From a virus: 39,650 bases of DNA. Both the position numbers and the translations under genes were made by a program. The notes below the pieces were generated by a model. The model had not been told where the DNA came from, did no database searches, and saw only the letters and a list, made by a program, of their open reading frames with translations. This document shows positions 2,597 through 33,560 of the stretch, one piece after another (position 1 is the stretch's first letter; each line of letters begins with the position of its first letter). The stretch spans positions 1-39,650 of the IMG/VR virus record IMGVR_UViG_3300046616_000204; one strand, given 5' to 3'.

Positions 2597-2602
2597 GCGA
2601 AT

Positions 2603-2647: not shown

Positions 2648-2655
2648 ATCCCCTC

Positions 2656-2683: not shown

Positions 2684-2691
2684 GCATGCCT

Positions 2692-2922: not shown

Positions 2923-3005
2923 GCGAGATACATGACGACATCAGGCAGGCAGCTTTTGATGCGGCGATCCAAATGCTGGAAGCCCTCGACGAGGTAGCGG
3001 CATGA
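2919..3005 (+). CDS. 28-residue early protein
   Basis: A very short reading frame, MSEIHDDIRQ... ending DEVAA, that exactly bridges the Cro-like gene and the next gene. It has a four-base ATGA overlap at each end, the arrangement seen throughout this operon. It is acidic and predicted to form one helix. Function unknown; its reality rests on the double overlap. Confidence 0.55.
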   Translation: MSEIHDDIRQAAFDAAIQMLEALDEVAA

Positions 3006-3229: not shown

Positions 3230-3242
3230 GAAGGGGCATGAA

Positions 3243-5528: not shown

Positions 5529-5600
5529 AGTTCCCCCGGTGGCCATACCTCCATGCCACCCACCTAGGCGCGAATGCCATTTCTCTTCAACGAGGGCAGC

Positions 5601-6383
5601 ATGACGGCTTACTACAACGAGATCGACCCCTACGCGGCACAATGGCTCCGTAATCTCATTGCTGCCGGTCATATCGCCCCAGGCGACGTAGACGAACGGA
5701 GCATCGTGGATGTCCAGCCAGACGACCTCAAGGGCTATACGCAGTGCCACTTCTTCGCAGGCATCGGCGGATGGAGCTATGGCCTACGGCTCGCCGGATG
5801 GAGCGACGATCGACGAGTGTGGACCGGCTCATGCCCATGTCAGCCGCTTTCAAGCGCCGGGAAGCAAAAGGGCCATCTCGACGAACGACATCTTTGGCCC
5901 GCTTTTTTCAACCTCATCACCGAGTGCCAGCCTTCAGTGGTCTTTGGAGAGCAGGTTGCAAGCCCGATTGGCCTCCGTTGGATGTCTGCCGTTCGATCTG
6001 ACCTGGAAGGCGATCGATATGCCTGCGGGATTGCCAGCGTTCCAGGTTTCATCGCGGGCGCGCCCCAGCAGAGGCAACGGCTTTATTGGGTGGCCCGCTC
6101 CAACCGCGCAGGACTCGATCGGTTCACGAAACAGGACGAGCAGCAGGCAACCGGGAGCGATCTTTCACGGTGGAACGACACTGACGGACGCAGCGGTTCT
6201 TTTTGGGCTTCCGCGATCCCAATGGAAGGCGCCGATGGTACCCGGCGCCTACTGTCACCCGGAATTAAGCTCCTGGCTGATGGGCTATCCGAAGGCATGG
6301 GCCAGCTGCGCGGCTACGGCAATGCCATCATCCCGCAAGTCGCGGCAGAAGTGATCGGCGCCTACATGGAGATCGCAGCATGA
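5601..6383 (+). CDS. C5-cytosine DNA methyltransferase
   Basis: A 260-residue enzyme that would place a methyl group from SAM on cytosine C5. Motif I is FFAGIGG (51-57), motif IV is the catalytic PCQ (79-81, C80 nucleophile), motif VI is FGEQV with E117, motif VIII is QQRQR (156-160) and motif X is GYGNAIIPQVA near the end. The target-recognition region between VIII and X is short. ATG 5601 follows GAGGGC; ATG 5574 is an alternative. It may protect phage DNA from host restriction. A second long open frame runs under its central and 3' part. Confidence 0.9.
   Translation: MTAYYNEIDPYAAQWLRNLIAAGHIAPGDVDERSIVDVQPDDLKGYTQCHFFAGIGGWSYGLRLAGWSDDRRVWTGSCPCQPLSSAGKQKGHLDERHLWPAFFNLITECQPSVVFGEQVASPIGLRWMSAVRSDLEGDRYACGIASVPGFIAGAPQQRQRLYWVARSNRAGLDRFTKQDEQQATGSDLSRWNDTDGRSGSFWASAIPMEGADGTRRLLSPGIKLLADGLSEGMGQLRGYGNAIIPQVAAEVIGAYMEIAA
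5710..6354 (+). other. Alternative frame inside methyltransferase gene
   Basis: A 214-codon frame, +1 to the methyltransferase, stays open under most of the gene. Its translation has features I associate with proteins annotated beside phage cytosine methylases: NDIFGPLF, LESRLQARL, WPAPTAQDS, LSSWLMGYPKAW and a MPSSRKS ending. This could be a genuine overlapping gene or the trace of a frameshifted relative. No strong ribosome-binding site was seen before ATG 5710. Confidence 0.4.
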
Positions 6384-6640
6384 CACAGAAGCTCCTCTCC
6401 CTCTTTCGTGAGCCCCACAACATGGACACGGCCCAGATTGCCGCACACCTCGGCGGCGAGGCTGCAGGCTGGACGGAGGGCCGCGTCTACAACCTCATCA
6501 ACGCAGAGCGCCGAGAAGAACGCGCCGTCCCCGTCACATGGAAAGACGTAGAGCCGAAAGAGCGCAAGCACGCCCCCACGGCCAAGCTACGCAAGCTCGT
6601 CCCGTTCGCTGGCTATGACGGCAAGGAGGAGCGTCTGTGA
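6380..6640 (+). CDS. Hypothetical small HTH-like protein
   Basis: An 86-residue basic protein. Residues 13-42 (NMDTAQIAAHLGGE, then GRVYNLINAERRE) look like a winged-helix or helix-turn-helix unit with a recognition-like helix. The tail is lysine-rich. ATG 6380 overlaps the methyltransferase stop (ATGA); the stop shares a base with the RusA-like start. It may be a regulator of early genes. No named family recognised. Confidence 0.65.
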   Translation: MTQKLLSLFREPHNMDTAQIAAHLGGEAAGWTEGRVYNLINAERREERAVPVTWKDVEPKERKHAPTAKLRKLVPFAGYDGKEERL

Positions 6641-7002
6641 TGCCGGATGCCTCCATCTTCCTCCCATGGCCAGACAAGCGCCTCAGCCCGAACGCTCGGC
6701 AGCACTGGGCATCTCTCGCCCGCGCCAAGAAGGCAGCGAAGCGAGCAGCCTACTACACCGCGCTTGAGGCAGGGCTTGGGAAGATCGAAGCAGAGACCAT
6801 CAGCGTCCGTGTGTCGTTCTTCCCGCCAGATCGCCGGCCAAGGGATACCGACAACGCCTTCGCCTCATGCAAGGCAGCTTTCGACGGAATCGCTCAGGCG
6901 ATCGGCATCGACGACAGCAAATGGAACATCACGATAGCTCCACGAGGCCCAGTCGAGAAAAGCGGCATGGTCAAGGTGGACCTCGAATGGGAGGAAGCAT
7001 GA
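6640..7002 (+). CDS. rusA: RusA-like Holliday junction resolvase
   Basis: A 120-residue protein like RusA (also 120 residues in E. coli), which cuts four-way DNA junctions as a dimer. The acidic catalytic pattern is visible: D64, D69 and D71-N72 in DRRPRDTDN, K78, D82 and D91/D92 in GIDDSKW. AAGGAGG lies 10 bases before ATG 6640 (7 before GTG 6637, the alternative start). It lies among replication genes and would resolve recombination and replication intermediates before packaging. Confidence 0.82.
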   Translation: MPDASIFLPWPDKRLSPNARQHWASLARAKKAAKRAAYYTALEAGLGKIEAETISVRVSFFPPDRRPRDTDNAFASCKAAFDGIAQAIGIDDSKWNITIAPRGPVEKSGMVKVDLEWEEA

Positions 7003-7580
7003 CAGTCGTCGCGTCCAATTTCGAGCGTGCAGCTAACGAGCACTACCAGACCGAGGCGTGGGCTACACGCGCTCTTCTCCGCCGCTTCCCGGTCAATGGC
7101 TACACCGTATGGGAGCCAGCCGCAGGCGGTCACATGATGGCCGACGTCCTCCGAGAGGAGGGAGCCACAGTCTGGACGAGCGATATCGAGCACTACGGTA
7201 GAGAGCACGACGAGCTGTTCGACTTCATCAACCAGCATTCAACATGGATGCTTGTCGGCAGCCAGCCGAAGGCGATCATCACGAATCCCCCATACGGCAA
7301 GGGCAACCGCCTAGCCGTCCGGTTCTGCGAACTGGCTCTGGAGCGCTGCAAGGGCGTCGTCGCCATGTTGCTCACTGCCAAGTTCGATTTCGGCAAGACC
7401 CGCCATCACCTGTTTCGCGACAATCCGCGCTTCCACGCCAAGATCAACCTCGTCGATCGCATCAGTTGGGCCGGGAACGGCGAGACTGGGACAGAGGATC
7501 ACGCTTGGTACGTCTGGGGACCGGAACGACCGGGACACATCGCGCGGCCCGCAATTTTCTACGAAGGGAAAGAGGCATGA
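6999..7580 (+). CDS. NPPY-type DNA methyltransferase
   Basis: A 193-residue SAM-dependent enzyme. WEPAAGGHM at about 38-46 is the SAM-binding motif, SDIE at 61-64 the acidic strand end, and NPPY at 96-99 the catalytic motif of N6-adenine (or N4-cytosine) methyltransferases. There is no large target-recognition domain, so it could be non-specific or act on another substrate. ATG 6999 overlaps the resolvase stop. With the cytosine enzyme it may help the phage escape host restriction. Confidence 0.85.
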   Translation: MTVVASNFERAANEHYQTEAWATRALLRRFPVNGYTVWEPAAGGHMMADVLREEGATVWTSDIEHYGREHDELFDFINQHSTWMLVGSQPKAIITNPPYGKGNRLAVRFCELALERCKGVVAMLLTAKFDFGKTRHHLFRDNPRFHAKINLVDRISWAGNGETGTEDHAWYVWGPERPGHIARPAIFYEGKEA

Positions 7581-7903
7581 ACGACTTCAACGAATTCTGG
7601 AGTTTGTACCCGCGCCGCGTATCCAAGCGCACCGCCCAGAAGGCATGGGACAAGGAAACGAAGCAGACCGCCCCCGAGGTGATCCTCGCCGGTCTCCGTC
7701 GCCAGCTTCCATACCTCACCAGCAAAGACCCTCAGTTCATCCCACACGCCTCGACCTGGATAAATCAGGCCCGTTGGGAAGATGAGGTTCAACCCATCCG
7801 CAGCAACACTGGCAGAAGGACGATAGCCGATGCCGCGAGAGACTTCCTCAGCAACGATTATCGCGGCGATGCTTTCGGGGTTCCCAGCATCGGCCGCCAT
7901 TGA
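7577..7903 (+). CDS. Replication-associated protein (108 aa)
   Basis: Starts MNDFNEFWSLYPRRVSKRTA with GGGAAAGAGG upstream and an ATGA overlap with the methyltransferase. FWSLYP-(R/K)R..K..A.KAW followed by QFIPHASTWINQARWEDE is the pattern found in the C-terminal part of many phage replication-initiator (O-like) proteins. Here that unit stands as a separate small protein. It probably contacts DNA or the helicase loader; this is family-based inference. Confidence 0.7.
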   Translation: MNDFNEFWSLYPRRVSKRTAQKAWDKETKQTAPEVILAGLRRQLPYLTSKDPQFIPHASTWINQARWEDEVQPIRSNTGRRTIADAARDFLSNDYRGDAFGVPSIGRH

Positions 7904-8276
7904 TCCCGACATGGCGATCCGAGCCTACCTCATGGCCGTTGAAGGCATAGCGCAGGAGGCAGTAGCCCGAGCAGCGCGCCTCTTCATCACGGGACAGGTG
8001 AAGGACCATAACCGGGATTTTGCCCCGTCCTGCGCCGCCTTTGCCGAGCAGTGCCGCTGGCAACAAGCATCGATCGACGCAGAGCGCCGGCCACGGATCG
8101 AGGAAAAGCCTCAAGAGCCACCGGCAAAGCTCGTCGATCCTCGCAAGCTCAAGCTCCTCAACGCCGCCCTCCAAGGCGACGTATCCGCAACCGAAGAACT
8201 GAAACGAATGTTTCCAGACCTTCCCGTCTGGAAGATGGCCGATCTTCCGGCCTCAAAGCTTTTGGAAAGTGAGTAG
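7830..8276 (+). CDS. Possible helicase-loader-like protein
   Basis: A 148-residue helical protein. Residues 10-72 (from ATIIAAMLSGFP to APSCAAFAEQCR) resemble phage proteins placed with replication initiators and thought to load the host helicase. It overlaps the previous gene by 74 bases; GAAGGA lies 10 bases before ATG 7830. ATG 7869 is a shorter alternative. It is followed by the DnaA-domain protein, so it is probably part of the initiation set. No ATPase motif is visible. Confidence 0.6.
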   Translation: MPRETSSATIIAAMLSGFPASAAIDPDMAIRAYLMAVEGIAQEAVARAARLFITGQVKDHNRDFAPSCAAFAEQCRWQQASIDAERRPRIEEKPQEPPAKLVDPRKLKLLNAALQGDVSATEELKRMFPDLPVWKMADLPASKLLESE

Positions 8277-8281
8277 CAGCC

Positions 8282-8878
8282 ATGAACATGCACCAGTCAG
8301 AACTCGCAAGGCAGCAACATGAATACAAGGACGTTCGCAGCCGGCTATTCGGCAATGCTCCGAAGAAGGAAAAGGCTGTCGTCCTAAGGGGAGCCGATGA
8401 AAGCGCCCTGATCGCCAGCCTGCAGCGCGACAAGCGTTGCCTTGAGGTGGAGCTCAAAGAAGCCCGCCAAAGCCTTCGCTACGTCGCAGAGCGCGAGCAG
8501 CATCATCGTGAGACTGAGAAGCGACTGGAGAAACTGGAGCTCGATCTTGCCGACGCTCGCGCCCGCATTCTCTCCCAAGCCGAGCTGATGAAGATCCTCG
8601 ACGACAACGAAGCTGGGGAGGTGATGGACCAGCGCCGGCCAGTTCATGAGATCGTGGCCGAAGTGCTCCAATATTATCCTGGCGTCACATGGGAGGACGT
8701 GAAGGGCATTCGCCGCACGCGCGACCTGATCGCCCCACGGCACGCCTGCATGAGAGCGGTCTACAACGAGCGGAAGGATCTATCCCTCCCTCGCATCGGG
8801 AAGTTCTTCAATAGGGACCATACGACAGTCATATCGGCACTAGGCCGAAAGAACAGGCAGACCACAGCAGCGGAATAA
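8282..8878 (+). CDS. DnaA domain IV protein without AAA+ domain
   Basis: A 198-residue protein. Residues 40-105 are a strongly charged coiled coil. Residues 118-192 match DnaA domain IV, the DnaA-box-binding helix-turn-helix, including the signature around RDHTTVISA (178-186) and the region IVAEVLQYYPGVTWEDVKG. Host DnaA is about 450-500 residues with an ATPase domain; none is present here. The protein could bind DnaA boxes in the phage origin, or cover host boxes and block host initiation. It follows the other replication genes directly. Confidence 0.82.
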   Translation: MNMHQSELARQQHEYKDVRSRLFGNAPKKEKAVVLRGADESALIASLQRDKRCLEVELKEARQSLRYVAEREQHHRETEKRLEKLELDLADARARILSQAELMKILDDNEAGEVMDQRRPVHEIVAEVLQYYPGVTWEDVKGIRRTRDLIAPRHACMRAVYNERKDLSLPRIGKFFNRDHTTVISALGRKNRQTTAAE

Positions 8879-8892
8879 CGAGGAACGGCGGA

Positions 8893-9525
8893 ATGAGTTC
8901 AAAGGCGGCAAAACTGAGAGCTAAACGCGCAGCACAAGGGGCAGGGCGTCCCAGGAAGGAAGGCGTCGAGCGGTACCCGAGCGGCGACATCAAGCGACAC
9001 GAAACCGAAAAGGAAGCGCTCAGCGTGGCACTGGAAGCAAGGAAGCGCATTCACGGTCTATCGGAGAACAACGCCCTGGCTGGCTACACGCTGGGGCGCA
9101 TGTTCCTTGACGGCTCAGTCAGCGAAGAGCAGCGCAAGGCTGGCGACGAGTACGCCGAGATCATCGCCCGCTATCACCGGACGGTCGGCATCCCGGCCCC
9201 TAGTGCTCGCGCTCAATCGCTGTTCTCGGTCAAGGGCCATGACGGGGAAGTGACCGAAAGCCTCGCCAAGCGCGCCAGAGACGCGAGCAATCGCATGATG
9301 GAGGTGACTGGCATTCTGCTTCGTTGCGTTGACGGCCCACAGGTAAAGGCGATCGTTCATAACCTGTGCGTAATGGATTACGACCACCTTCGCGGCATGG
9401 GACCCCAACAACTTCTGTGGCTTAAGCGTGGATTGAACGCTCTCATCAAAGCAAAGGAGTTGCGTGAGAAGGGCAAATCAGTTATGAGTTGGGATATTCT
9501 ATCATCGCAAGTTTCGTCCGCTTAA
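8893..9525 (+). CDS. Hypothetical phage protein, end of early operon
   Basis: A 210-residue protein with a very basic N-terminus (SSKAAKLRAKRAAQGAGRPR) and a helical remainder. GAGGAACGGCGGA precedes ATG 8893. It is the last gene before the structured gap at 9526-9760 and the late operon, the place where many phages encode a late activator or antiterminator. That role is position-based only; no such family is recognisable. Confidence 0.7.
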   Translation: MSSKAAKLRAKRAAQGAGRPRKEGVERYPSGDIKRHETEKEALSVALEARKRIHGLSENNALAGYTLGRMFLDGSVSEEQRKAGDEYAEIIARYHRTVGIPAPSARAQSLFSVKGHDGEVTESLAKRARDASNRMMEVTGILLRCVDGPQVKAIVHNLCVMDYDHLRGMGPQQLLWLKRGLNALIKAKELREKGKSVMSWDILSSQVSSA

Positions 9526-9594
9526 ATAGAAACGCACCCGCCACGCCTCTCAACGATGCGCATCAGGTGGGTCATTTATCGGGATCGACGCGAC

Positions 9595-9610
9595 GGCGGC
9601 TTAGGCCGCC
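9595..9610 (+). terminator. GC hairpin after early operon
   Basis: GGCGGC (9595-9600), loop TTAG, GCCGCC (9605-9610). A short, very stable stem 70 bases after the last early gene. There is no T-run, so at most a pause or factor-assisted site. Confidence 0.4.
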
Positions 9611-9699
9611 ACAGCGAGACGGCATGAGGCTCACGCCTAACTGGCCTTTGTAGAGCGGCATGCTTCCTGAGCCTTCCAATGCGGAGCCCCGCGCGATCA

Positions 9700-9735
9700 G
9701 CCCCTTATAAGGGTAGCTTGGAAACAAGCTGGGGC
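9700..9735 (+). ncRNA. Tetraloop hairpin with competing stems
   Basis: AGCTTG-GAAA-CAAGCT (9715-9730) is a perfect 6-bp hairpin with a GAAA tetraloop. It can be enclosed by GCCCC (9700-9704) pairing with GGGGC (9731-9735). The same CCC also belongs to a perfect palindrome CCCTTATAAGGG (9702-9713), so the two folds exclude each other. Such a switch suggests a regulatory leader RNA, but it could equally be a protein-binding DNA site for packaging or replication. Confidence 0.4.
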
Positions 9736-9760
9736 AATCTCCCACGTTTCAGGGAACGAG

Positions 9761-9946
9761 ATGCCCGACGAAGACGCATTCTCACCTCTCGAATCCCACT
9801 GCTATCTCCGCCAAGCTATCCTAGACGGCATAGAAGGCTTCGCCCTCATGGACTGCGACGGAGAGATGGAGATATTCGCTGAGAACCGCTCCGACGTGTT
9901 CTTCTACGCAAGAGAGCATGACCTAACCGTGGTATCGCGCCATTGA
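9761..9946 (+). CDS. Small hypothetical protein (61 aa)
   Basis: Acidic 61-residue protein MPDEDAFSPLESHCYLRQAI. AGGGAACGAG precedes ATG 9761. Strand-rich middle (GFALMDCDGEMEIFAE). It is the first gene after the structured gap and overlaps the next gene by four bases. Function unknown. Confidence 0.6.
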   Translation: MPDEDAFSPLESHCYLRQAILDGIEGFALMDCDGEMEIFAENRSDVFFYAREHDLTVVSRH

Positions 9947-10179
9947 GCGTCATCGACCTCAACGCAGAGCGAGACAAGCGATCCGCTCCAGACGTTGAGC
10001 ACGTCAGAACCGACCAATTCGGCCGGCCAATGTTCGAATTCCTCTGCGATTACAGGACAGACAGCGCCTCCTGGTCGCTTCGCCTCTGGGCATACTCGCT
10101 TGAAGACGCAGAAGCACGAGTAGAGGCCATCAGGGGATCGCTTACGTGTCTCGGGCAGCTTTACACCGTCGTTTCGTAG
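9943..10179 (+). CDS. Small hypothetical protein with TTG start
   Basis: A 78-residue protein, MSVIDLNAERDKRS, with aromatic strands in the middle (FEFLCDYRTDSASWSLRLWAYS). The start is TTG at 9943, overlapping the previous stop, chosen because the N-terminus reads like a natural one and no ATG follows in a suitable place. It precedes the terminase genes. No family recognised. Confidence 0.55.
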   Translation: MSVIDLNAERDKRSAPDVEHVRTDQFGRPMFEFLCDYRTDSASWSLRLWAYSLEDAEARVEAIRGSLTCLGQLYTVVS

Positions 10180-10252
10180 AAAATTCTCCCTTACCTATCC
10201 GAGCGGATAGAAATGAAATTCCAATGCACCAACCGCAAGGAGTGCAGAACCA

Positions 10253-10501
10253 ATGGCCGACAAGGGCTTACGGGGTGTCCGCCTCAATCCCGCTCATGAC
10301 GAGCGCACAAGAGCAAAGATCAAAACAAGTCAGATCATCAACCGCTTGGAAAAGTTGGTGAATGGCGAAATCGAAATGAATGCTCAGCAAGTCACGGCTG
10401 CAGGCATCCTTCTGAAGAAGACATTGCCTGATCTCAGCGCGGTCACGATGGACGGCAAGATCACGCTGACCCACGAAGACGCCCTGAATGAGCTTGAGTG
10501 A
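10253..10501 (+). CDS. Probable small terminase subunit
   Basis: An 82-residue protein directly before the large terminase and overlapping it by 14 bases. AAGGAG precedes the ATG. The basic N-terminus (MADKGLRGVRLNPAHDERTR) and the phrase QVTAAGILLKKTLPDLSAV are typical of short small-terminase-like proteins of this kind of phage. Small terminases bind the pac or cos site and feed DNA to the large subunit. It is shorter than P22 gp3 (162 residues), so the assignment rests on position and pattern. Confidence 0.65.
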   Translation: MADKGLRGVRLNPAHDERTRAKIKTSQIINRLEKLVNGEIEMNAQQVTAAGILLKKTLPDLSAVTMDGKITLTHEDALNELE

Positions 10502-12038
10502 GCGAGAGAAGGCAATTCGGCGCAAACTTCGCGACGAGTTCCCGCACTACGCTCCAAGATGCCTGAAGATCAGAACCAAGGGCGGACATGTCGAGCCGTT
10601 CACGCTCAACAGGGCGCAGGAATATCTGCACAGCCGCCTGGAAGATCAGCTAGCGCGCACAGGCAAGGTTCGGGCACTGATCCTCAAGGGCAGGCAGCAA
10701 GGCATCTCGACTTACGTCGGCGGTCGCTACTATCACAAGGTGACGCACAAGCGCGGCCGGCGCGTCTTCATCCTCACTCATGAGCAGGATGCGACCAACA
10801 ACCTATTCGGCATGGTCGAGCGCTATCACGATCATTGCCCCGAACTAGTGAAGCCAACGACGGGTGCGGCGAACGCCAAGGAGCTTTCGTTTCCGAAGCT
10901 CGATAGCGGGTACGCAGTCGGCACGGCAGGAGCAAAGGCGGTCGGTCGATCGCAGACAGTGCAGTTCTTCCACGGATCAGAGGTAGCTTTCTGGCCCAAT
11001 GCGCCCACCCACTTCGCTGGCGTTGTCCAGGCTATACCGGATCTGCCGGAAACTGAGGTCATCCTTGAGAGCACGGCAAACGGCGTCGGTGGCGAGTTCC
11101 ACGAACGCTGGCAGCAGGCCGAGGCGGGGATAGGCGACTACATCGCAATCTTCATCCCTTGGTTCTGGCAGCCGGAATATTCACGGCCCGTTCCTGATGG
11201 CTTCGTCCTCGACGAGGAAGAGGCGACGTATCAAGAGGCTTACGGCCTGACGCTGGAGCAGATGGTTTGGAGGCGGGCCAAGGTGGCAGAGCTGAAAGAC
11301 CCGACGTTGTTCAAGCAGGAATATCCTGCGACCGCGGCTGAAGCATTCCAGATGACTGGCCATGACGGCTTCATCAAGCCGGATCCGGTTGTTGCGGCGA
11401 GAAAGGCGACGATCGAGGGGATTGGGCCGCTAATCCTCGGCGTGGACCCGTCGCGCTTCGGTGATGACAGGTTCTCGGTCGCATGGCGGCGCGGTCGTCA
11501 GGTTTCGAAGATCGAGAGCAAGACCAAGCTCGATAACGTGGCTGGCGCCAACTGGATCAAGCAGCTTATTGACGTTGATAAGCCCGACAAGGTGTTCATC
11601 GACGTAGGCGGACAAGGCGCTGGTGTCTTCGACATCCTCAATAGCTGGGGTGGCACATATGCCGATGTCATTGAGGCAATCGATTTCGGCGGCGCTCCGC
11701 AGGCTCCGGAGATCATTCTCCCGAACGGAGAAAAGAGACCTGGGCCGCTCAATCGCCGTGCTGAGATGTGGATGCGGTCGCGGGACTGGCTCGATGCAGT
11801 GGGTGGGGCTGATATCCCCGACACGGACAGCCTTCAGACTGACGCCTGCGGGCCTCAATACCGATATGACGCCAACCAGAGCGTCATAATCGAATCCAAG
11901 GAACAGATGCGCAAGCGCGGTGTCCGCTCTCCTGACGAGTGGGACGCGGTTGTTCTCACGTTCGCCGCTCCGGTTGTCGAGCGGAAGAAGAAAACAGACC
12001 CGAGGCGTCACGTAGGCGCTGGCGCCTGGATGGGGTAG
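10488..12038 (+). CDS. Terminase large subunit
   Basis: A 516-residue packaging motor. The ATPase half shows a Walker-A-like LKGRQQGIST (66-75) and an acidic E165 in FFHGSEVAFW that fits Walker B/catalytic Glu. The nuclease half has an RNase H-type core: D320 in GVDPSRFGDD and D382 in FIDVGGQG. It cuts concatemeric DNA and pumps it through the portal. P22 gp2 is 499 residues, similar in size. ATG 10488 lies within the small terminase gene. P22-like companions suggest headful packaging, which fits a circular assembly. Confidence 0.93.
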   Translation: MSLSEREKAIRRKLRDEFPHYAPRCLKIRTKGGHVEPFTLNRAQEYLHSRLEDQLARTGKVRALILKGRQQGISTYVGGRYYHKVTHKRGRRVFILTHEQDATNNLFGMVERYHDHCPELVKPTTGAANAKELSFPKLDSGYAVGTAGAKAVGRSQTVQFFHGSEVAFWPNAPTHFAGVVQAIPDLPETEVILESTANGVGGEFHERWQQAEAGIGDYIAIFIPWFWQPEYSRPVPDGFVLDEEEATYQEAYGLTLEQMVWRRAKVAELKDPTLFKQEYPATAAEAFQMTGHDGFIKPDPVVAARKATIEGIGPLILGVDPSRFGDDRFSVAWRRGRQVSKIESKTKLDNVAGANWIKQLIDVDKPDKVFIDVGGQGAGVFDILNSWGGTYADVIEAIDFGGAPQAPEIILPNGEKRPGPLNRRAEMWMRSRDWLDAVGGADIPDTDSLQTDACGPQYRYDANQSVIIESKEQMRKRGVRSPDEWDAVVLTFAAPVVERKKKTDPRRHVGAGAWMG

Positions 12039-16238: not shown

Positions 16239-16472
16239 ATGGCAGTAGAATTTCTCGGTGCCGGTTCCCCTGACGGAACGAACCTTGGCCGCAATACCAC
16301 GACCGACAAAATCGGTTTCTACGGCACTACCCCCGTTGTTCAACGGGCATCCTCTGCGCAGGCATCCAGCCTGATTGCTGCAACCACGTCGCTTACGGCG
16401 AATATGGCTGCTGCGATTCAGGAAATCATGGCGACCATGACGGCGCTCGGCCTTTGGAAAGGTTCAGCCTGA
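16239..16472 (+). CDS. Small head-associated protein
   Basis: A 77-residue protein after the coat gene. ATG 16239 follows AAAGGAG at proper spacing; ATG 16233 is too close. DKIGFYGTTPVVQRASSAQA is a motif common in small head decoration or fibre proteins of phages. The C-terminus is a hydrophobic helix. Probably a virion component; direct evidence is only the motif and position. Confidence 0.65.
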   Translation: MAVEFLGAGSPDGTNLGRNTTTDKIGFYGTTPVVQRASSAQASSLIAATTSLTANMAAAIQEIMATMTALGLWKGSA

Positions 16473-16474
16473 TC

Positions 16475-17158
16475 ATGAAGATAGTCATTGGGGTTCCGAC
16501 CCTAACGCGACCCCATGACGCCCTTCTGAAGGCAATTGAAGAAGCAGTCCCGGCGCTTGATCGTGCCGGGATCGCACACAGCCTAGTCGCTGAGATTGGC
16601 TGCCCATACATCAGCAGCGCTCGAGCGACCCTCCTGCGCAAGGCGTTCGATGCAGACACCGATGCAATCGTCTTCCTCGACCATGACGTTTCATTCCGCC
16701 CTGACGACCTCGTGAAGCTGGTCGAGGCCACTGGCGACGTGGTTGCAGGAACATACCGCTTCAAGAAGGCGGAAGAAGAATACATGGGAGCGCTGGTAGA
16801 CGTAGAAGATCACCGCCCGATCGTCCGCGAAGACGGATGCATCAAGGCAGATCGCGTCCCGGCTGGTTTCCTCAAGGTCACCCGTGCTGCGGTCGAGAGG
16901 TTCAAGCAGTCTTTCCCGCATCTCGTGTTCAAGGATCGCGACGGCTTCGAATCTGTCGATCTGTTCAACCATGGAGCCCATGACGGGCTCTGGTATGGCG
17001 AAGACTACGCCTTCTGCCGCAACTGGGTGTCGATCGGCGGGGAAATCTGGCTCGTTCCAGACCTGAACATCGATCATCACCAAGGCGATACCGCATATCG
17101 CGGGAACTATCACGAATTCCTTCTGCGTCAGCCTGGGGGCTCGAATGAGCATATCTAA
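16475..17158 (+). CDS. Glycosyltransferase in head operon
   Basis: A 227-residue GT-A-type glycosyltransferase. MKIVIGVPTLTRP begins a nucleotide-sugar-binding fold; FLDHD (67-71) gives the metal-binding D-x-D; PAGFLKVTRAA and YGEDYAFCRN are typical later motifs of GT2/Anp1-like enzymes. There is no signal or membrane segment, so it acts in the cytoplasm. It sits between coat/decoration and connector genes and overlaps the next gene by 14 bases. It is thus expressed with virion proteins and may glycosylate one of them or a host molecule late in infection. Confidence 0.82.
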   Translation: MKIVIGVPTLTRPHDALLKAIEEAVPALDRAGIAHSLVAEIGCPYISSARATLLRKAFDADTDAIVFLDHDVSFRPDDLVKLVEATGDVVAGTYRFKKAEEEYMGALVDVEDHRPIVREDGCIKADRVPAGFLKVTRAAVERFKQSFPHLVFKDRDGFESVDLFNHGAHDGLWYGEDYAFCRNWVSIGGEIWLVPDLNIDHHQGDTAYRGNYHEFLLRQPGGSNEHI

Positions 17159-24714: not shown

Positions 24715-26044
24715 GGAAATCCGTGAGGTTGTCGCGGCTGGCCCGGGCTGGACGCAGGTGCGCGCATCAGATGGTAACACGTATACCCTGAGTGGCACAA
24801 GAAACTGGCGAAATAACAACCCCGGGAACCTTGAATATGGGGATTTCGCGCGGTCGAAAGGCGCTGTCGGGACTGATGGGCGCTTTGCCGTTTTCCCGTC
24901 CTATGAGGCGGGCAGGCAGGCTAAATCCTCGCTTCTGTTCGATAGCCCAAGGTACGCCGACAAGACTATTGCGGGAGCGATTACGCAATATGCTCCTAGC
25001 TTTGAGAACGACACGCGGGGCTACTACAGCCGAATAGCACGAGATGCTGGCGTCACCCCAGACACGCCACTCTCCAGCCTTGACGAAGGCCAGCGAGGTT
25101 CGTTGCTCGATTCGATGCAGCGCGTCGAAGGCTATCGCCCCGGTCGGGTGACGGATGCTTATGGAAATCCGGTCAGCGCCGGCCTTCTGAACAGCTACAC
25201 GCCAATGGCGGACATCCCGAACGCGCCGACGCCAACGTCAAGGCCTCCCGACCTTGAAGGCATCCTGAACACTCCAGAGCCCGTCAGCCCTGCGGAATAT
25301 GCTGCCTATAGCTCCCCCCTCACTTCCGTCCAACGCGCTCCATTGAAGGACGTAGACATGCGTGTCCAGCAGCCCACCATGCAAACCGTTCCTGAATTGA
25401 AGTATGACCGGTTCGCGACGACGCTCCCGACGCTCTCTGACGAGGCACGATTTGCGACGAACACTGTCGCCTCTGGCAAGAACGCCGTTCGTCGCGGTCT
25501 CCTCGACCAGCAGCTTGACGCCGGCATTCTCCCATCTCTCGACAACCCCGCCTATGCGGCAATGCAGCAGCCCGATTACGTGGACCCCACGGTAACGAGC
25601 GCCTACGCCGAGCCGGACTCGATCAAGACGGCTGCCGTCCAGCCTCCGGCCTTCGATGCGCAGCCTGGGCTCTCAGGTGGACTCCTATCGCCTCAAGAGC
25701 AGAAGGCCGTGGCAGCACAGCGCGCCTATCTCGAAAGCCAGCCGTTCAACAAGGCTCCGTCGCAGTTCGGCAGTAAGGCCAAGGAAGCGGCAGGCAGCAT
25801 CCTCGGCGCCGTCCTTGGTGGACTCACGCTCGGGCCTGTCGGCGCTCTCGGCGGCGGTCTCCTTGGCAATGTCGTCACGCGCCCCGGTGGGATTCTGGGG
25901 ACCAGCAGCCCCTCTTACTTCCCGGATGCGCCAAAATCTCAATCTCGCGGGGACGGGTCGCTGACCTCATACGGGCAGTCCGTAGCGAATACCTCCGGTC
26001 AATTTTCCCGAGCGATGGCGTCGGGTGGCAAAGGTCTCTACTGA
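24713..26044 (+). CDS. Virion protein with lysozyme-like N-domain
   Basis: A 443-residue structural protein. Residues 30-145 (NWRNNNPGNLEYGDF, GTDGRFAVFPSYEAGRQAK, IAGAITQYAP, LLDSMQRVEGY) match a domain found in phage virion proteins linked to peptidoglycan degradation at entry. The rest is Pro/Ala-rich and then hydrophobic (ILGAVLGGLTLGPVGALGGG), perhaps membrane-inserting. GAGG lies 7 bases before ATG 24713. It overlaps the fibre gene (ATGA-type). Likely ejected or tail-bound; the catalytic residue is not certain. Confidence 0.72.
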   Translation: MEIREVVAAGPGWTQVRASDGNTYTLSGTRNWRNNNPGNLEYGDFARSKGAVGTDGRFAVFPSYEAGRQAKSSLLFDSPRYADKTIAGAITQYAPSFENDTRGYYSRIARDAGVTPDTPLSSLDEGQRGSLLDSMQRVEGYRPGRVTDAYGNPVSAGLLNSYTPMADIPNAPTPTSRPPDLEGILNTPEPVSPAEYAAYSSPLTSVQRAPLKDVDMRVQQPTMQTVPELKYDRFATTLPTLSDEARFATNTVASGKNAVRRGLLDQQLDAGILPSLDNPAYAAMQQPDYVDPTVTSAYAEPDSIKTAAVQPPAFDAQPGLSGGLLSPQEQKAVAAQRAYLESQPFNKAPSQFGSKAKEAAGSILGAVLGGLTLGPVGALGGGLLGNVVTRPGGILGTSSPSYFPDAPKSQSRGDGSLTSYGQSVANTSGQFSRAMASGGKGLY

Positions 26045-26937
26045 TGGCGAAGAACACGATTTATGATTATTCCACGTCGGCTGGTAGCAATACCGACATC
26101 GCCGGGATTGGCGTCCTCGGGACGAACGCGGTCAATAACTTCGACGATGCATTCCGAACCATCATGGCGCAGATCGCCACGGATGTTTCGCCGCGGCGCC
26201 TGTCGATCCAGGGCGCGCTCTACGGCCTGACGCTCTCCAACAACGCAGGGGATGTGACCAACGATATCGACATTGCCGTTGGTATGGCGACGACGGACAG
26301 CACGACAGATCCGCGCACGATGGTCCTGTCGTCCGCCCTCACCAAGCGCCTCGACGCTACATGGGCAGTCGGCACGAACCAGGGCGGTCTAGACACCGGC
26401 ACGGTTGCCGACAACACATATCACGTCTGGCTGATCCAGCGGTCGGACACAGGCGTCGTTGATGCAACATATTCTCTGTCTGCCACGTCTCCGACGATGC
26501 CCGCGAACTTTGACCGCAAGCGCCGTATCGGATCTGTTATTCGATTCCTGGGAACAATTCTGGCCTTCCAGCAGCTTGGAGACGTCTTTCTCCTTACATC
26601 GATCATCACGAACCGGAGCAGCACTGCGGCATTCGCACCTGCGCTTATCGCGGTTTCCGTCCCTGCTGGGATCAATGTTCAGCCAATCCTCCAAAGCATC
26701 CTTAACACAGGCGCCACTTCGAACGTCACAATCAGCATGGGCAATGGGACTGCATCTGGCATTCTCGCTGCGGTTCAGGCGGAAGTTTCTTCCAGCACTA
26801 ACACCATTATCATCGGCCCCGCGTTCTGGACCAATACATCCAGGCAAATCTACTATTCTGTGACGATTGGCGCCGGGACAATCACAAGCAACACATTGGC
26901 CACGCTTGGATGGGTGGACCCACGAGGGAGGACCTAA
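26044..26937 (+). CDS. Tail fibre/receptor-binding protein
   Basis: A 297-residue protein. The N-terminus AKNTIYDYSTSAGSNTDIAG and NNFDDAFRTIMAQIA resemble the virion-attachment part of short fibres of alphaproteobacterial phages. The remainder is strand-rich with many Thr, Ser and Asn and ends in a likely trimer beta region. It would recognise the host surface. It is followed by a small gene that may be its chaperone and by the opposite surface-modification gene. Confidence 0.72.
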   Translation: MAKNTIYDYSTSAGSNTDIAGIGVLGTNAVNNFDDAFRTIMAQIATDVSPRRLSIQGALYGLTLSNNAGDVTNDIDIAVGMATTDSTTDPRTMVLSSALTKRLDATWAVGTNQGGLDTGTVADNTYHVWLIQRSDTGVVDATYSLSATSPTMPANFDRKRRIGSVIRFLGTILAFQQLGDVFLLTSIITNRSSTAAFAPALIAVSVPAGINVQPILQSILNTGATSNVTISMGNGTASGILAAVQAEVSSSTNTIIIGPAFWTNTSRQIYYSVTIGAGTITSNTLATLGWVDPRGRT

Positions 26938-26938
26938 A

Positions 26939-27286
26939 ATGTTCGTTGAGCGTGATAATAATGGCAAAGTCATTGGGCTTTACCTTGAGATGTTCCCGCT
27001 GATTGCGGAAGAAGAACTCCCCGACGACAACGATGAAATCCAAGCCTTCCTTAACCCGCCACCTGGGCCATTCGTGCTCCAGAAAATGCTACTTTGGGCA
27101 CGGCTGACCGATAAGGAGGCCGATACCGTTGATGCAGCCATGGCAGCACAGCCGGCACGACTGCGGGGAATATGGAATTCCGCCACAGAAATTCGCTCCG
27201 ACAGCGAGTTCTTTGGGACATTGGAGGCGTTTCTTACCGCTTCGCTAGGCGCTGATCGTGCGGCCGAACTTCTGCAGCAGGAGTAG
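26939..27286 (+). CDS. Possible fibre-assembly protein
   Basis: A 115-residue acidic protein, MFVERDNNGKVIGLYLEMFP, with GGGAGGA before ATG 26939. The N-terminal strand pair followed by EEELPDDNDEIQAFL is seen in small proteins placed after fibre genes, where some act as assembly chaperones. C-terminal half helical. Last gene of the main late run; its stop is 3 bases from the end of the convergent fusion gene. Confidence 0.55.
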   Translation: MFVERDNNGKVIGLYLEMFPLIAEEELPDDNDEIQAFLNPPPGPFVLQKMLLWARLTDKEADTVDAAMAAQPARLRGIWNSATEIRSDSEFFGTLEAFLTASLGADRAAELLQQE

Positions 27287-27289
27287 GGT

Positions 27290-29455
27290 CTATTTGGATG
27301 AGAGCGCGGCACCAATGCGGGCTATTGTGTTCTCCAGTTCCGCAACTCGGTGTTGGAGGTTTTGGTTCTCCATAATTCTATAGTGATTTTCTGGAAGAAG
27401 TTGGTTTATCTTCCGCAAAAGAAAATTGCTCTGCGTTATGGACCCTGGCATGGGCTCGCGCGATCCTAAAATATCGCCAACTTTTTCTTCTATCAGCAAC
27501 AGGTCATTGAGATCGACGGCATTGTTTATTTCGATAAGGCCATCCCCTCTGGAGATATAATACAAATGAGGGAATTGCGCCGAGAGAACATCGAAAAGCT
27601 CGCTGAATTTGGCGACTACGCCAACAACATCGCACTTGAAGCGGTCAACAATATCTCCGATTGAAAACTCAACGATCACCCTTCGGGTTTTCTTAAGAGC
27701 TTCATCTGCGCCGCTCAATACAACGTCGGTGTATCCTTCAACGTCAATCTTCAACAGTGCGATATGGTCGATGCGCAGCTCTTCCACCAATGTATCTAGC
27801 TTTCGCGCAGGTACTTTGTAGCCAGACGTTCCGTCTACACCAGCGCCGATTTTAGCATTGGTTCCTGAGCCGGAGAATGTGATTTCTCCGTCTAGGTCGG
27901 CGATCGCCAAACAATGGGACTCTATGGGAGAGCCGGAGATGTTCTTCTTCAGTAGTTCATGATTCAGCGGGGAAGCTTCGATAGCAACAACACGAGCAGA
28001 AGGAACTACCCTGCTCATGAAAAGGCTGTTGATCCCAACGTTTGCGCCGATGTCGACGAAAACCTCACCATCCGAAACCAAACGGTTGTAAAGGCAAAGC
28101 TGATTGGCCTCCCATACGCCAGTTGATTCGATCGTTTTCGAGATAATAGTTTCTGCCTCGTCAATCCGGACGGGGAAGTGTACGCCGGCGAACGAAAATT
28201 CTAGTATCTTGCTCACAATTTTCCTCGGTTCTGTTTCTGTTGTCTTCGCCGTTTGGAGCCGGAAGGAGTGCCGTCTTAATAGGTCGCCACGCAGTCGTTT
28301 GGCAATCGACTTGGATAGCTTTAGCAATCTCCCCCGTAAAACTGGAGGAGAGACTATTACTGGCTCCGTCACCCGGACAGAAGGCTGATTATCATCAGTG
28401 GTCGCCGTTTTCGGCTCCCACACTGCCGGATCAAGGCCATAATATCCACGTTCCTTGCGCAGTTTATTGGGCTGCCAAGGCGGCACCTTAACGTCGTCAA
28501 CGCTCGTCAAGCGCGATAGGAGTACGCTCCATAGTTCTGGCGAAAACGCGTGCTGCAATACCGTCGGCCCAGAAAATGCCCAAGACTGCACTTTTGGGTG
28601 GAAAACATGTGTCTTCTTCCCAAAGGCCACGGCTTCCATACCAACTGATGACGCCAGAGTGGCAACGGACACGTCAGCGTCGGAAGCTAGAATTTCATAA
28701 GTATTGGCTTCAATGAGTTCTGCGCCCAATTCCAAGATCACAGCCGCAACTACCGGATTGCCTGGGTCAAGCGGATGCGGTTTGATGAAGACTCGTCTAC
28801 CGTCCATGACATTCCGGAGACCAGAGACCGCTTCTTGGGCGCCGATAAAGCTCCCGTTTTTGATTAGCGTCCGGTCCGCCGACGTTTGAGCAAAGAATAC
28901 CAGCGCACCATTCAGGTCAGTTGGTGCACGGTTCAGATACGTCGATCGCACGCGCTTGACTGACGTCTCTATCACAGCTGCGTCTAACGCCAACTCCGGC
29001 GGGAAAGCTCCATCGAAATGCCGAGACATCCGGAAGGACATTGCGTAGTCCTGAAGGAACCTCAGGGGGCTGATGCCGATATCGACCCACGGTATTCCGC
29101 AAGCATCTAAAATGCGCTGGAGTAGCGGAGACAACTCAAACGAGACTACTAGGGCTCCTAGATAGTCATCGGCAACGCTCTTGATAAGGGCTGGCGATGG
29201 CTCTTCTTCAAAGTGCCTTGCCCAAGAAGACATACAGGGGACAGAGCCCAGAATTCCGTACCAGGAGCGCAAAAGGTCGCCAGCGTCGAAGGGCTCTGGT
29301 CCGGCTAGGCGTATTTCCGTTGGAAGCCCCGTAAGTGACCTAAGCAACGGTGAGATGTGTGAAAATACCCACCGCACGTTTTCGATTTGGCTGCGCTCTC
29401 CGGCGTAGGTGCGAAAAACATCTCCGGTAAAGACTATGCGATCGATCTCAGGCAT
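27290..29455 (-). CDS. GT-B glycosyltransferase-FkbM methyltransferase fusion
   Basis: A 721-residue cytoplasmic protein. Residues 1-320 resemble a GT-B capsular-polysaccharide glycosyltransferase of the KpsC/KpsS/LpsZ kind: KPHP at 225-228, YEILASDADVSVATLASSVG (about 253-272) and MEAVAFGKK. A basic linker (about 370-410) leads to an FkbM-type SAM methyltransferase: VDIGANVGINS 467-477, E493 in AIEASP and LKIDVEG 568-574. The end is a coiled coil (693-715). The pair of activities fits adding and O-methylating a sugar on surface polysaccharide. It opposes its neighbours and is AT-richer (27361-27420: 20 G/C of 60; portal 13801-13860: 36 of 60), signs of a moron acquired by transfer. Confidence 0.82.
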   Translation of the reverse strand: MPEIDRIVFTGDVFRTYAGERSQIENVRWVFSHISPLLRSLTGLPTEIRLAGPEPFDAGDLLRSWYGILGSVPCMSSWARHFEEEPSPALIKSVADDYLGALVVSFELSPLLQRILDACGIPWVDIGISPLRFLQDYAMSFRMSRHFDGAFPPELALDAAVIETSVKRVRSTYLNRAPTDLNGALVFFAQTSADRTLIKNGSFIGAQEAVSGLRNVMDGRRVFIKPHPLDPGNPVVAAVILELGAELIEANTYEILASDADVSVATLASSVGMEAVAFGKKTHVFHPKVQSWAFSGPTVLQHAFSPELWSVLLSRLTSVDDVKVPPWQPNKLRKERGYYGLDPAVWEPKTATTDDNQPSVRVTEPVIVSPPVLRGRLLKLSKSIAKRLRGDLLRRHSFRLQTAKTTETEPRKIVSKILEFSFAGVHFPVRIDEAETIISKTIESTGVWEANQLCLYNRLVSDGEVFVDIGANVGINSLFMSRVVPSARVVAIEASPLNHELLKKNISGSPIESHCLAIADLDGEITFSGSGTNAKIGAGVDGTSGYKVPARKLDTLVEELRIDHIALLKIDVEGYTDVVLSGADEALKKTRRVIVEFSIGDIVDRFKCDVVGVVAKFSELFDVLSAQFPHLYYISRGDGLIEINNAVDLNDLLLIEEKVGDILGSREPMPGSITQSNFLLRKINQLLPENHYRIMENQNLQHRVAELENTIARIGAALSSK

Positions 29456-29579
29456 TCGGGACTCGAAAGTTTAAAGACGGAAATGCTTTAGATCAAATAC
29501 CCCTAGTTTCCAACCCGGTTATCTCCGGCGGCGGTTTCTCAAGGCCAAGCCTTTCTAATCCTCACAATCTGGAGCTTTC
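29456..29579. promoter_or_regulatory. Divergent gap, possible moron promoter
   Basis: This gap separates the leftward fusion gene from the endolysin gene. On the minus strand TTGGAA (29508-29513) and TAAAGC (29485-29490) are 17 bases apart, 30 bases before the fusion gene's ATG; a weak but possible promoter. GGAG lies 6 bases before the endolysin ATG. No operator-like repeat seen. Confidence 0.35.
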
Positions 29580-30326
29580 ATGGATCGCGCGATCTTCTTC
29601 GCCGCGTTGCGCCGTCGCGCATCCGGTGTTTTCGGCACGTCCCTAACTCAAGGGCAGGTGGACGGCATCAACGGCATTCTCGATGCCTTCGCCACGCATG
29701 GAGACGGCAGAGACAAGACGCTCGCCTATGCCCTAGCCACGGCCTACCACGAGACAGGCGCCCGCATGGTCCCCGTTAGGGAGGGTTTCGCAAAGGATGA
29801 CGCCAGCGCACGCCGGATCGTAGCCAAGCGCGCCTACGGCCAGCCTGCGGGAAAATACGGGAATGTCTACTATGGTCGCGGACAGGTTCAGCTCACCTGG
29901 ATGAAGAACTATGACACGTCGTCGAAAGACGCGGCCTATGATCTCGTCGCTTATCCCGACAAGATGCTCGATCCGGTCATTTCCGCCCGGGTGATGATCA
30001 AGGGCTTGCTGGACGGCCGATGGAACGGCGCAGGGAAGGGGATTGCCACCTACCTGCTCACAAACGGCCCTGACGACCTCAAGAACGCTCGCCGCACGGT
30101 CAACGTGACCGACAAGTGGGAATTGATCGGTGGCTACTACACGGCCTTCCTGTCGGCAATCAAAGAGGCTGGCGGCGTTCCTGTCACCGCTCCCCCTCCA
30201 CAGCCAGCGCCCGCACCAACCCCCAAGCCCGTCGTCATCGAGCCGCAACCGGTCTCCTCTGGCGATTGGATCTCCACTCTCATCAAGGCAATCGCTGCCG
30301 TTTTCACGAGGAAAGAAGCATCATGA
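29580..30326 (+). CDS. Endolysin, GH19/lysozyme-like
   Basis: A 248-residue peptidoglycan hydrolase. Residues 1-180 match chitinase-like GH19 lysins: AYHETG with likely catalytic E58, then YYGRGQVQLTWMKNY (97-111). A proline-rich linker (about 203-228) and a short amphipathic end (WISTLIKAIAAVF) follow, which may bind membrane. There is no signal peptide, so release should need the holin candidates downstream. It overlaps the next gene (ATGA). Confidence 0.85.
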   Translation: MDRAIFFAALRRRASGVFGTSLTQGQVDGINGILDAFATHGDGRDKTLAYALATAYHETGARMVPVREGFAKDDASARRIVAKRAYGQPAGKYGNVYYGRGQVQLTWMKNYDTSSKDAAYDLVAYPDKMLDPVISARVMIKGLLDGRWNGAGKGIATYLLTNGPDDLKNARRTVNVTDKWELIGGYYTAFLSAIKEAGGVPVTAPPPQPAPAPTPKPVVIEPQPVSSGDWISTLIKAIAAVFTRKEAS

Positions 30327-32175: not shown

Positions 32176-32350
32176 GGTGCGACAAGCCTCTCAAAATTCC
32201 AAAATGATATCAACGGGGCGATTTTTAGTCCCACCTTCAATCACGCCTTTGATTTCGTTCATTTGTGCCACATCTGCAGGGGTCGCCAAACCACCCTCTA
32301 AGTTATTGATCTTGCTATAGGTGCGACCAAGCAGGGACATAGGTGCGACC
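32176..32350. repeat. GGTGCGAC repeats beside integrase
   Basis: ATAGGTGCGACC occurs at 32317-32328 and 32339-32350, 22 bases apart centre to centre; GGTGCGAC occurs again at 32176-32183. The last copy contains the integrase stop. Spaced direct repeats next to an integrase gene are typical of arm-type integrase or excisionase sites of attP. No tRNA-like core was found, so attP itself is not located. Confidence 0.45.
32191..32340 (-). CDS. 49-residue protein after integrase
   Basis: MSLLGRTYSKINNLEGGLAT, 49 residues ending DIILEF, starts 9 bases after the integrase stop. It could be a small soluble protein with one helix and a strand. The ribosome-binding site is weak, and the frame overlaps the GGTGCGAC repeats, so this may instead be non-coding attP DNA. 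Confidence 0.4.
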   Translation of the reverse strand: MSLLGRTYSKINNLEGGLATPADVAQMNEIKGVIEGGTKNRPVDIILEF

Positions 32351-33384
32351 TACAGTCTGTTCGCGAGGCGTTCCGAAGCGCCCCTAGCAAGCCGCTTTTT
32401 ATCCGCTTCCTTGGTGTAAACTTCAGCCATGGAAAGCCGAGACCATCCAAACATAGCCATCAGCTCATGAGGCGTTGCGCCTTCGTCAGCGGCTATCGTC
32501 GCCCCGGCCTTTCTCAGGCCATGCGCTCTGCACTCATCCGGCAACCCTGCCGCCGTGCATTGCTTCGCAAACCAATTCCCAAACGATGCCCCAGTGCTGA
32601 ACGGCTTGTTCCGCTCGGTGACGAGAAACGCCAGATCACCCGTCTGTGTTGCCTCGATTGATTCCTTGAGCTGCTTGAAGACCGGCAGGTAAACCCATTG
32701 GCCTGTCTTCTTCGTCTTGAGCGAGATAACGCCGTCCTTCATGTGCTGCCGGCCGACGACAACGGCGTCTGAGCGGCGAAGGCCGAGGAAGAGGAGGATA
32801 TCGATCGCCAGCCGTCCCCGCGTTCCAAGCTTGTGGTGCGCGCGGTATTGCTCGACCTGCTCAACGGTCCAAGTGTGGAACCCATCGCTCTTGTTGGAGA
32901 GCTTGCTGACACCAAGTGCAGGGTTGACCGAAACTAGATCCGCCTCAACCGCCCATTTGAAAACGCCGCTCATGGTCTTCATGAAGCTATTGGCTGCCTC
33001 TGGCGTTGCTGCACGCTTGTCCATGCCCTTCTTGATGTGGGCCTTGGTGATGGCGCCGAATGGCCCCTCTCCGTTTTTGGCTTCCGCCAGGATCTGCTTC
33101 AGGATGTTGTCGCGCGCCCTCTTGGTCGATGGCGCAAGCTTCGCAAACTCACCGCTCTTCTTGTACTGATCGAATAGCCATTTGAGAGTGCCGGTTTTCG
33201 CCTTGGGCTGCTCTGCAGGGGCTGCCGAGCCTGTCAGGGCCTTCTCATATGCCGCGTTGAACTCATCGCCGCCGTAGGGCTCTGGAAGGCGGATACGCTT
33301 ACCGCCCCGCTTGAAATACCAAACGAGGCGGCCATGACGTGTCTTTTCATGCGAAAGGAACGGTTTGCGGGGCATGTCGGCCAT
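32350..33384 (-). CDS. int: Tyrosine recombinase integrase
   Basis: A 344-residue integrase. Residues 60-150 form the SAM-like core-binding domain; 170-340 the catalytic domain. Active-site residues: R203 in LGLRRSD, lysine around 223-226, H288 and R291 in HGLRKAG, W314 in place of the second His, and nucleophile Y323 in EVYTKEA. It joins phage attP to host attB. ATG 33384 shares a base with the stop of the excisionase-like gene (TGATG). It lies at the far end of the leftward operon. Confidence 0.92.
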   Translation of the reverse strand: MADMPRKPFLSHEKTRHGRLVWYFKRGGKRIRLPEPYGGDEFNAAYEKALTGSAAPAEQPKAKTGTLKWLFDQYKKSGEFAKLAPSTKRARDNILKQILAEAKNGEGPFGAITKAHIKKGMDKRAATPEAANSFMKTMSGVFKWAVEADLVSVNPALGVSKLSNKSDGFHTWTVEQVEQYRAHHKLGTRGRLAIDILLFLGLRRSDAVVVGRQHMKDGVISLKTKKTGQWVYLPVFKQLKESIEATQTGDLAFLVTERNKPFSTGASFGNWFAKQCTAAGLPDECRAHGLRKAGATIAADEGATPHELMAMFGWSRLSMAEVYTKEADKKRLARGASERLANRL

Positions 33385-33560
33385 CAAAGATCAAAGTCCC
33401 AGGTCTTTGCAATCTCTTTTTCTTGCTGGTCATCGGGGATATCTGGGGAAATGCGGATGATCTTGCCGTTTACCTCGACTTCGACCCGAACGCCGTCCCG
33501 CTTCGCAATCTTGGCCATGCGGTGCAGGTCCGATTCCTTGAGGAGGGCCGCTCTCGTCAT
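33384..33560 (-). CDS. Excisionase-like small protein (58 aa)
   Basis: MTRAALLKESDLHRMAKIAK, 58 residues: an N-terminal helical part followed by strands VRVEVEVNGKIIRISPDIPD. Proteins of this shape precede the integrase gene in rhizobial phages and prophages, and an excisionase or directionality role is inferred from position. ATG 33560 overlaps the previous stop (ATGA) and uses the GGGGAG of the shared repeat. It also overlaps the integrase start. Confidence 0.65.
   Translation of the reverse strand: MTRAALLKESDLHRMAKIAKRDGVRVEVEVNGKIIRISPDIPDDQQEKEIAKTWDFDL

Follow-up and report, generated by a model that had tools for sequence, protein, structure and literature searches.

A GT140-like glycosyltransferase-FkbM methyltransferase fusion gene in an exchangeable slot of a P22-like temperate phage with rhizobial relatives

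The DNA analysed here (the window) is a virus record of 39.65 kb, which encodes a P22-type portal, a terminase, a CI-like repressor, an integrase and RecT. It comes from a temperate phage of the P22-like type. Its relatives, the phages of the collection with DNA matching the window, are rhizobial, and it is from them alone that we infer the host. Between a fibre-like gene and an endolysin gene the window carries an antisense gene for a two-domain protein. The features that matter for this locus are the following:

2006-2638, minus strand: CI-like S24 repressor, marking a temperate phage
26044-26937, plus strand: fibre-like gene, 297 aa, the upstream neighbour, named by position and without a family match
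26939-27286, plus strand: small gene after the fibre-like gene, its start set at an internal ATG from a comparison with L071 5672-6028
27290-29455, minus strand: GT140-like glycosyltransferase/FkbM methyltransferase fusion gene, 721 aa, assigned by sequence and predicted structure
26695-29548, no strand: exchangeable segment, without a DNA match to the related contig L228, both flanks of which match
29580-30326, plus strand: GH19-type endolysin, identified by domain profile, the downstream neighbour and anchor of the slot
32350-33387, minus strand: tyrosine integrase, marking a temperate phage

The fusion gene starts with ATG and runs for 721 codons without an internal stop, antisense to both the fibre-like and the endolysin genes. 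Its stop codon lies 3 bases from that of the preceding convergent gene, and a divergent region of 124 bp separates its start from the endolysin side. An earlier note on this DNA had described a glycosyltransferase-FkbM methyltransferase fusion in one gene, lying opposite to the fibre and lysis genes; the orientation follows from the ORF coordinates and strands, and the fusion is borne out by profiles, a PDB match and the predicted structure (below). The gene was also said to be AT-richer, which is true with respect to the adjoining late genes (GC of 0.514 versus 0.57-0.62), but both ends of the window have a similarly low GC (0.52-0.54), so that the composition of the gene alone proves little. 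A promoter consensus scan for the fusion gene gave results at chance level, other promoter types being outside its coverage.

Two other parts of the window deserve mention. Directly after the major head protein gene there is a gene for a 234-aa protein (16454-17158, plus strand) with a weak likeness to GT2 glycosyltransferases (Pfam, E-value = 0.0045), which corresponds to PHROG 1574, a family with no function assigned there; it may represent a second sugar enzyme or an oddity of the structural region. A C-5 cytosine DNA methylase is encoded at 5574-6383 (plus strand), just downstream of a calcineurin-like phosphatase (4866-5528).

The fusion protein can be divided into four parts:

28421-29455, minus strand: N-module, residues 1-345, GT140-like, predicted retaining Kdo-transferase; predicted catalytic residues D194, Q190, E107, R132, H227 and P228, from alignment to KrkA
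28253-28345, minus strand: basic amphipathic linker helix, residues 371-401, a possible membrane anchor
27536-28228, minus strand: FkbM methyltransferase module, residues 410-640, with VDIGANVG and LKIDVEG
27293-27511, minus strand: C-terminal helices, residues 649-721, the putative coiled coil of the earlier note

In a sequence search against the PDB, residues 7-330 of the N-half matched KrkA (E-value = 4e-13). KrkA of Escherichia coli K13 is the founder of family GT140, a retaining beta-Kdo transferase that acts by double displacement and was described in January 2026 (PDB 9YFX, 9YFY and 9YFZ; PMC12887879). The AlphaFold2 model of the full protein has a mean pLDDT of 72.7, the catalytic domains being mostly confident and the linker and most of the C-terminus not. 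Superposition of this model on KrkA covers 322 residues with Z = 26.1 and rmsd of 3.3, at a sequence identity of about 20%; next in the structure ranking comes the beta-Kdo transferase WbbB, at Z = 14.7. The model thereby supports the N-half as a GT-B-type glycosyltransferase, and its nearest family, by sequence as well as by predicted structure, is GT140. The earlier note had called this half a KpsC/LpsZ-like GT-B domain. The GT-B-type fold stands, and both motifs, KPHP and ASSVGMEAVAFGKK, are found in the N-half; the family assignment does not, since the nearest family is GT140 and the Pfam family of the KpsC/KpsS type, Capsule_synth, stays under its cut-off (E-value = 0.32). Given that GT140 is the nearest family, the donated sugar is probably Kdo, and since the window contains no kds genes, CMP-Kdo would come from the host.

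The residues found essential or strongly needed in KrkA (PMC12887879) were mapped onto the fusion protein. The nucleophile D193 corresponds to D194 and Q189 to Q190, giving the QxxxD motif (Q190-TSA-D194), and the general base E102 corresponds to E107, within FE at the (Y/F)E position; both the motif and the E107 position are invariant across ten aligned sequences. R127 and N21 correspond to R132 and N26, the HP motif is kept as H227-P228 in both proteins, and Y255, S271, S272 and E276 of the CMP site correspond to Y253, S269, S270 and E274. The KrkA equivalents of Q190 and R132 contact the carboxylate or hydroxyls of Kdo (PMC12887879). The fusion protein also keeps, as K225, the basic residue of the (K/R)xHP motif, which in KrkA is replaced by Ser (PMC12887879). 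The acceptor side is changed: W122 of KrkA is replaced by G127, R170 by either Y173 or N175 according to which alignment is used, and K71, called unconserved (PMC12887879), by W78. Two residues of the ribose-Kdo acceptor site of KrkA (R170, W122) are therefore not kept. They characterise the acceptor of KrkA itself rather than GT140, other relatives varying at these positions too. With the donor-side residues kept and the acceptor-side residues changed, the donor is probably CMP-Kdo, a strong case being made for Kdo, and the acceptor is probably not the ribose-Kdo of KrkA.

The C-half exceeds the curated cut-offs of TIGR01444 (E-value = 3e-27; 95.7 versus 37.7 bits) and of PF05050 (E-value = 5e-14; 53.2 versus 22.7 bits), and its top structural matches are all methyltransferases (Z up to 12.7). 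The structure prediction and profile searches of both halves, which the earlier note had proposed as a check, thus lead to KrkA for one half and, as that note had claimed, to FkbM and other methyltransferases for the other. The helix between the modules (approximately residues 371-401) has a moment of 0.53 and a charge of +7, a score reached in 3 of 300 shuffles of the whole protein; the model places it at 374-401 with low confidence. It may reasonably be expected to anchor the enzyme to the membrane. The C-terminal coiled coil finds little support: the model predicts a helix of about 30 residues (691-720), but the heptad score of the tail was reached by 496 of 1000 tail shuffles and so does not rise above them.

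To place the gene in context, we compared the window with viral contigs encoding near-identical endolysins. Both flanks of the slot are conserved in these contigs (77-95% DNA identity to the window). Homology to L228, which forms one contig with L015/L071, extends up to 26694 and resumes at 29549, so that the exchangeable segment takes in the cargo gene as well as the 3′-terminal part of the fibre-like gene. For L069 the homology extends up to 26172 and resumes again at 29549, and for L070 it resumes at 29564; the downstream junction is therefore nearly constant. At the position of the fusion gene an Acyl_transf_3 gene is found in L069 (plus strand) and another one in L070 (minus strand); L071, like L072, which is nearly a copy of it, has a different, plus-strand FkbM gene there (TIGR01444, E-value = 7e-10). 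These cargos look like separate acquisitions, since the two acyltransferases are only 22% identical and BLAST finds no match between the FkbM protein of L071 and that of the window. The slot thus holds an extra gene inside a conserved phage backbone, swapped among relatives for cargos which are unrelated or nearly so.

Comparable places in more distant rhizobial phages and prophages are occupied by an FkbM gene (phi3LM21), FkbM-like and GT2-type genes (L219), a class I methyltransferase gene (L020), or a set of genes that includes GT25 and NodZ-like ones (L019). In Rhizobium phage RHph_N28_2 the place is taken by an antisense membrane protein, and several related loci have no evident cargo in the slot. 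An enrichment of glycan-modifying genes in the slot is our impression from the close relatives and not a measured rate. At the slot borders only short imperfect repeats were found in the search for recombination sites. The RHph_N28_2 gene (L004, 8152-10233, minus strand) encodes a 693-aa protein that is rich in hydrophobic stretches and matches DoxD below the threshold; it was considered as a relative of the fusion gene and rejected on comparison. In L071 two antisense low-GC genes are inserted at 2568-3498 (minus strand), upstream of a late gene for a 428-aa protein; one of them has a sub-threshold match to a TacA1-like antitoxin, and this is perhaps a second cargo site.

The GT140 profile matched in 2 of 385 class-wide genomes and in 4 of 395 genomes of the family Rhizobiaceae, and the latter search uncovered a second prophage with a GT140 gene, L240. 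Its KrkA-like protein (6156-7322) is 45% identical to KrkA (E-value = 4e-99). The prophage is of a contractile-tail type and unrelated to the window phage. Upstream of the GT140 gene lie genes for baseplate J and a Mu gp48-like protein, together with a long gene at the fibre position; downstream there is a peptidoglycan-binding M15-type gene, probably the endolysin. Directly behind GT140 come a HAD/ribosyltransferase-like gene (Bcs3, E-value = 3e-24) and an antisense methyltransferase gene, and these cargo genes have a GC of 0.50-0.52 within DNA of approximately 0.59-0.65. At the comparable place PPF1, which is related to the L240 prophage, has acetylesterase and SGNH hydrolase genes, and RR1-A has no such genes. 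Thus, two unrelated rhizobial temperate phages carry GT140 together with a methyltransferase in the interval between fibre and lysis genes. The L240 cargo at 6156-10633 (Rhizobiaceae genome G455, contig 1, about 2521155-2525633) is possibly a complete K13-type Kdo-ribose polymerase carried by a phage.

Free-standing relatives of the N-half, of about 370-390 residues and 21-29% identical over the full alignment, are located on alphaproteobacterial replicons and one Escherichia plasmid. The Pseudosulfitobacter relative belongs to a polysaccharide cluster that also contains kdsA, kdsB, an FkbM gene and the gene of a KpsF-type isomerase. The relatives in Palleronia and in one Hyphomicrobiales genome (L212) also have kdsA, kdsB and a KpsF-type isomerase nearby, and the E. 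fergusonii relative is accompanied by a KpsF-type isomerase and capsule export genes. Other relatives had no kds neighbours within the stretch examined.

No further GT140-FkbM fusion turned up in the collections searched, with the patterns and thresholds applied. Viral and genome contigs contained no close relative of the whole protein, and among 397 genomes from the order none gave a match spanning both halves. In tblastn searches of 50,697 phage records the fusion protein was matched through its FkbM half only, and the GT140 protein of L240 had no match. Scans of viral contigs for GT140, with alignment patterns and with the L240 protein, were negative, but pattern scans depend on conserved short stretches, and the absence of GT140 from viral contigs is therefore weakly evidenced. 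Among viral models FkbM proteins ranked top in the structure search; the defence-system library gave one weak methyltransferase match; and in the literature searched no single paper combined bacteriophage, Kdo transferase and serotype conversion, and one paper mentioned GT140 along with glycosyltransferase. None of four closely inspected GT140 regions contained a match to the FkbM half. Two proteins from these regions end in GT4-type domains: L238 (2362-5550) and L239 (2337-5480) encode proteins of about 1050 residues with GT140 followed by a C-terminal GT4-type glycosyltransferase, a bacterial type of fusion.

Starting from the observed two-domain architecture, the predicted fold, the conserved active site and the exchange of the slot, we consider it probable that the gene encodes a lysogenic-conversion enzyme, which adds Kdo to a lipid-linked surface glycan and O-methylates it, resulting in a changed or capped phage receptor. 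The GT140-like module would take Kdo from host CMP-beta-Kdo, form a covalent adduct on D194, as expected from KrkA chemistry, and pass the sugar, with net retention, to a hydroxyl group on a lipid-linked surface polysaccharide, E107 acting as the general base. The FkbM module would then O-methylate the new residue or its neighbour; that both modules work on the same glycan is a reasonable expectation. The linker helix may hold the enzyme to the cytoplasmic side of the inner membrane, the site at which lipid-linked glycans are assembled. Once altered or capped, the glycan might change phage adsorption, most simply because a receptor is spoiled, a step we put forward with some reserve. Nearly every Gram-negative cell makes CMP-Kdo, and such an enzyme would therefore work without additional pathway genes.

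The earlier note had also arrived at prophage-driven change of the host polysaccharide. The other glycan-modifying genes in the same slot of related phages make surface-glycan change the likeliest role, with the fusion gene looking like an exchangeable coat-changing device; the family is refined to GT140, and the coiled coil is doubtful. New in the present analysis are the GT140 assignment, the predicted donor, the exchangeable slot and the second prophage with GT140 at a comparable place. Lysogenic conversion is further supported by the kdsA, kdsB and KpsF-type genes beside relatives, one of which also has an FkbM gene, by the FkbM gene of phi3LM21 at the comparable place, by the cargo of the L240 prophage, and by the integrase and repressor that mark the phage as temperate. 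Against it count the chance-level outcome of the promoter scan, the low identity to KrkA, the acceptor-side differences, the relatives without kds genes, and the related slots that hold no cargo or an unrelated membrane protein. If it is correct, Kdo transfer and methylation from one gene would be a new chemistry in phage-driven surface change, GT140 would gain a role outside capsule loci, and the slot would offer a defined place for finding more glycan-modifying enzymes of rhizobial phages. Since the fibre-like gene contributes its 3′ end to the exchangeable segment, receptor-binding and receptor-changing functions could be swapped together, which makes a phage altering the receptor of its own fibre a directly testable idea. 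As a tentative generalization, GT140 with a methyltransferase may be a fibre-linked coat-changing cargo of rhizobial temperate phages, the methylated Kdo mark or cap, made through a single gene from the housekeeping sugar nucleotide CMP-Kdo, excluding competitors and perhaps altering the plant's view of the host.

A special form of lysogenic conversion, possible but rather unlikely, is that the enzyme is a chain terminator: instead of decorating repeats, methylated Kdo would cap the non-reducing end of an O-polysaccharide exported by an ABC transporter and set or shorten its length. WbbB and WbdD cap O-polysaccharides with terminal beta-Kdo or methyl, which makes capping a serious sub-hypothesis. 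The second-ranking structural match, WbbB, terminates chains with beta-Kdo; WbdD and similar terminators add methyl groups and possess both an amphipathic helix and a coiled coil, and the fusion protein has a basic amphipathic helix and a short C-terminal helix. However, the extended coiled-coil ruler of the WbdD/WbbB type is absent or very short here (the single C-terminal helix of about 30 residues, with its unexceptional heptad score), and the founder of GT140 is a polymerase module, not a terminator.

A donor other than Kdo, such as a Pse- or Kdn-like ulosonic acid activated by CMP, is improbable. Retaining transferases of the same fold do include the Pse transferase KpsS1 (GT118; PMC12887879), and the identity to KrkA is low. 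Several relatives, however, have kdsA/kdsB neighbours, and the Kdo-contacting Q190 and R132 are conserved. Moreover, CMP-Kdo is available as a donor in any Gram-negative host.

Also improbable is the view of the gene as a passenger, a host polysaccharide gene fragment picked up by chance and neither expressed nor selected. Its GC is lower than that of its neighbours, no promoter was recognised and no close relative was usable for a selection test. Yet all 721 codons are open with both predicted active sites intact, related phages repeatedly carry genes of similar function in this position, joined downstream at almost the same point (29549 or 29564), and the second prophage has GT140 in a comparable slot. 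Modification of a phage or host protein, or action in lytic growth (on released debris or on the receptor before lysis) rather than in the lysogen, would fit the position among late genes and the varied substrates on which FkbM methyltransferases act, but is likewise improbable, as the gene is antisense to the late genes, like several of the cargo genes of relatives, and GT140 chemistry targets glycans.

Read as lysogenic conversion, the fusion gene is a variation on known phage seroconversion. Temperate phages of the P22 and Sf types convert the O-antigen with gtr clusters and O-acetylases. They have in common with the window phage a temperate lifestyle and likely surface-glycan enzymes, and relatives of the window phage carry acyltransferases in the slot; the window gene, however, adjoins no gtrA/gtrB flippase-type genes, and its product is a single fusion with predicted cytoplasmic CMP-Kdo transfer and methylation, encoded in a slot by the fibre and the endolysin. 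The GT140 module of KrkA shares with the fusion protein the fold, the nucleophile, the general base and the CMP-binding residues, but is accompanied by a ribosyltransferase instead of the phage-borne FkbM methyltransferase and differs at W122, R170 and K71. WbbB (Klebsiella O12, GT99; PDB 5FA1, 8CSB-8CSF) has the retaining beta-Kdo transferase fold and a possible capping role in common with the window protein, but it belongs to a different family, has its general base elsewhere, and possesses polymerase modules and a long coiled coil that the window protein lacks. A likeness in gene order is found in Sinorhizobium phage phi3LM21, where the FkbM protein p49 is encoded between tail fibre and chitinase/endolysin genes; unlike the window gene, it is a stand-alone gene on the sense strand without a glycosyltransferase, and its product is 23-25% identical to the methyltransferase core of the fusion protein.
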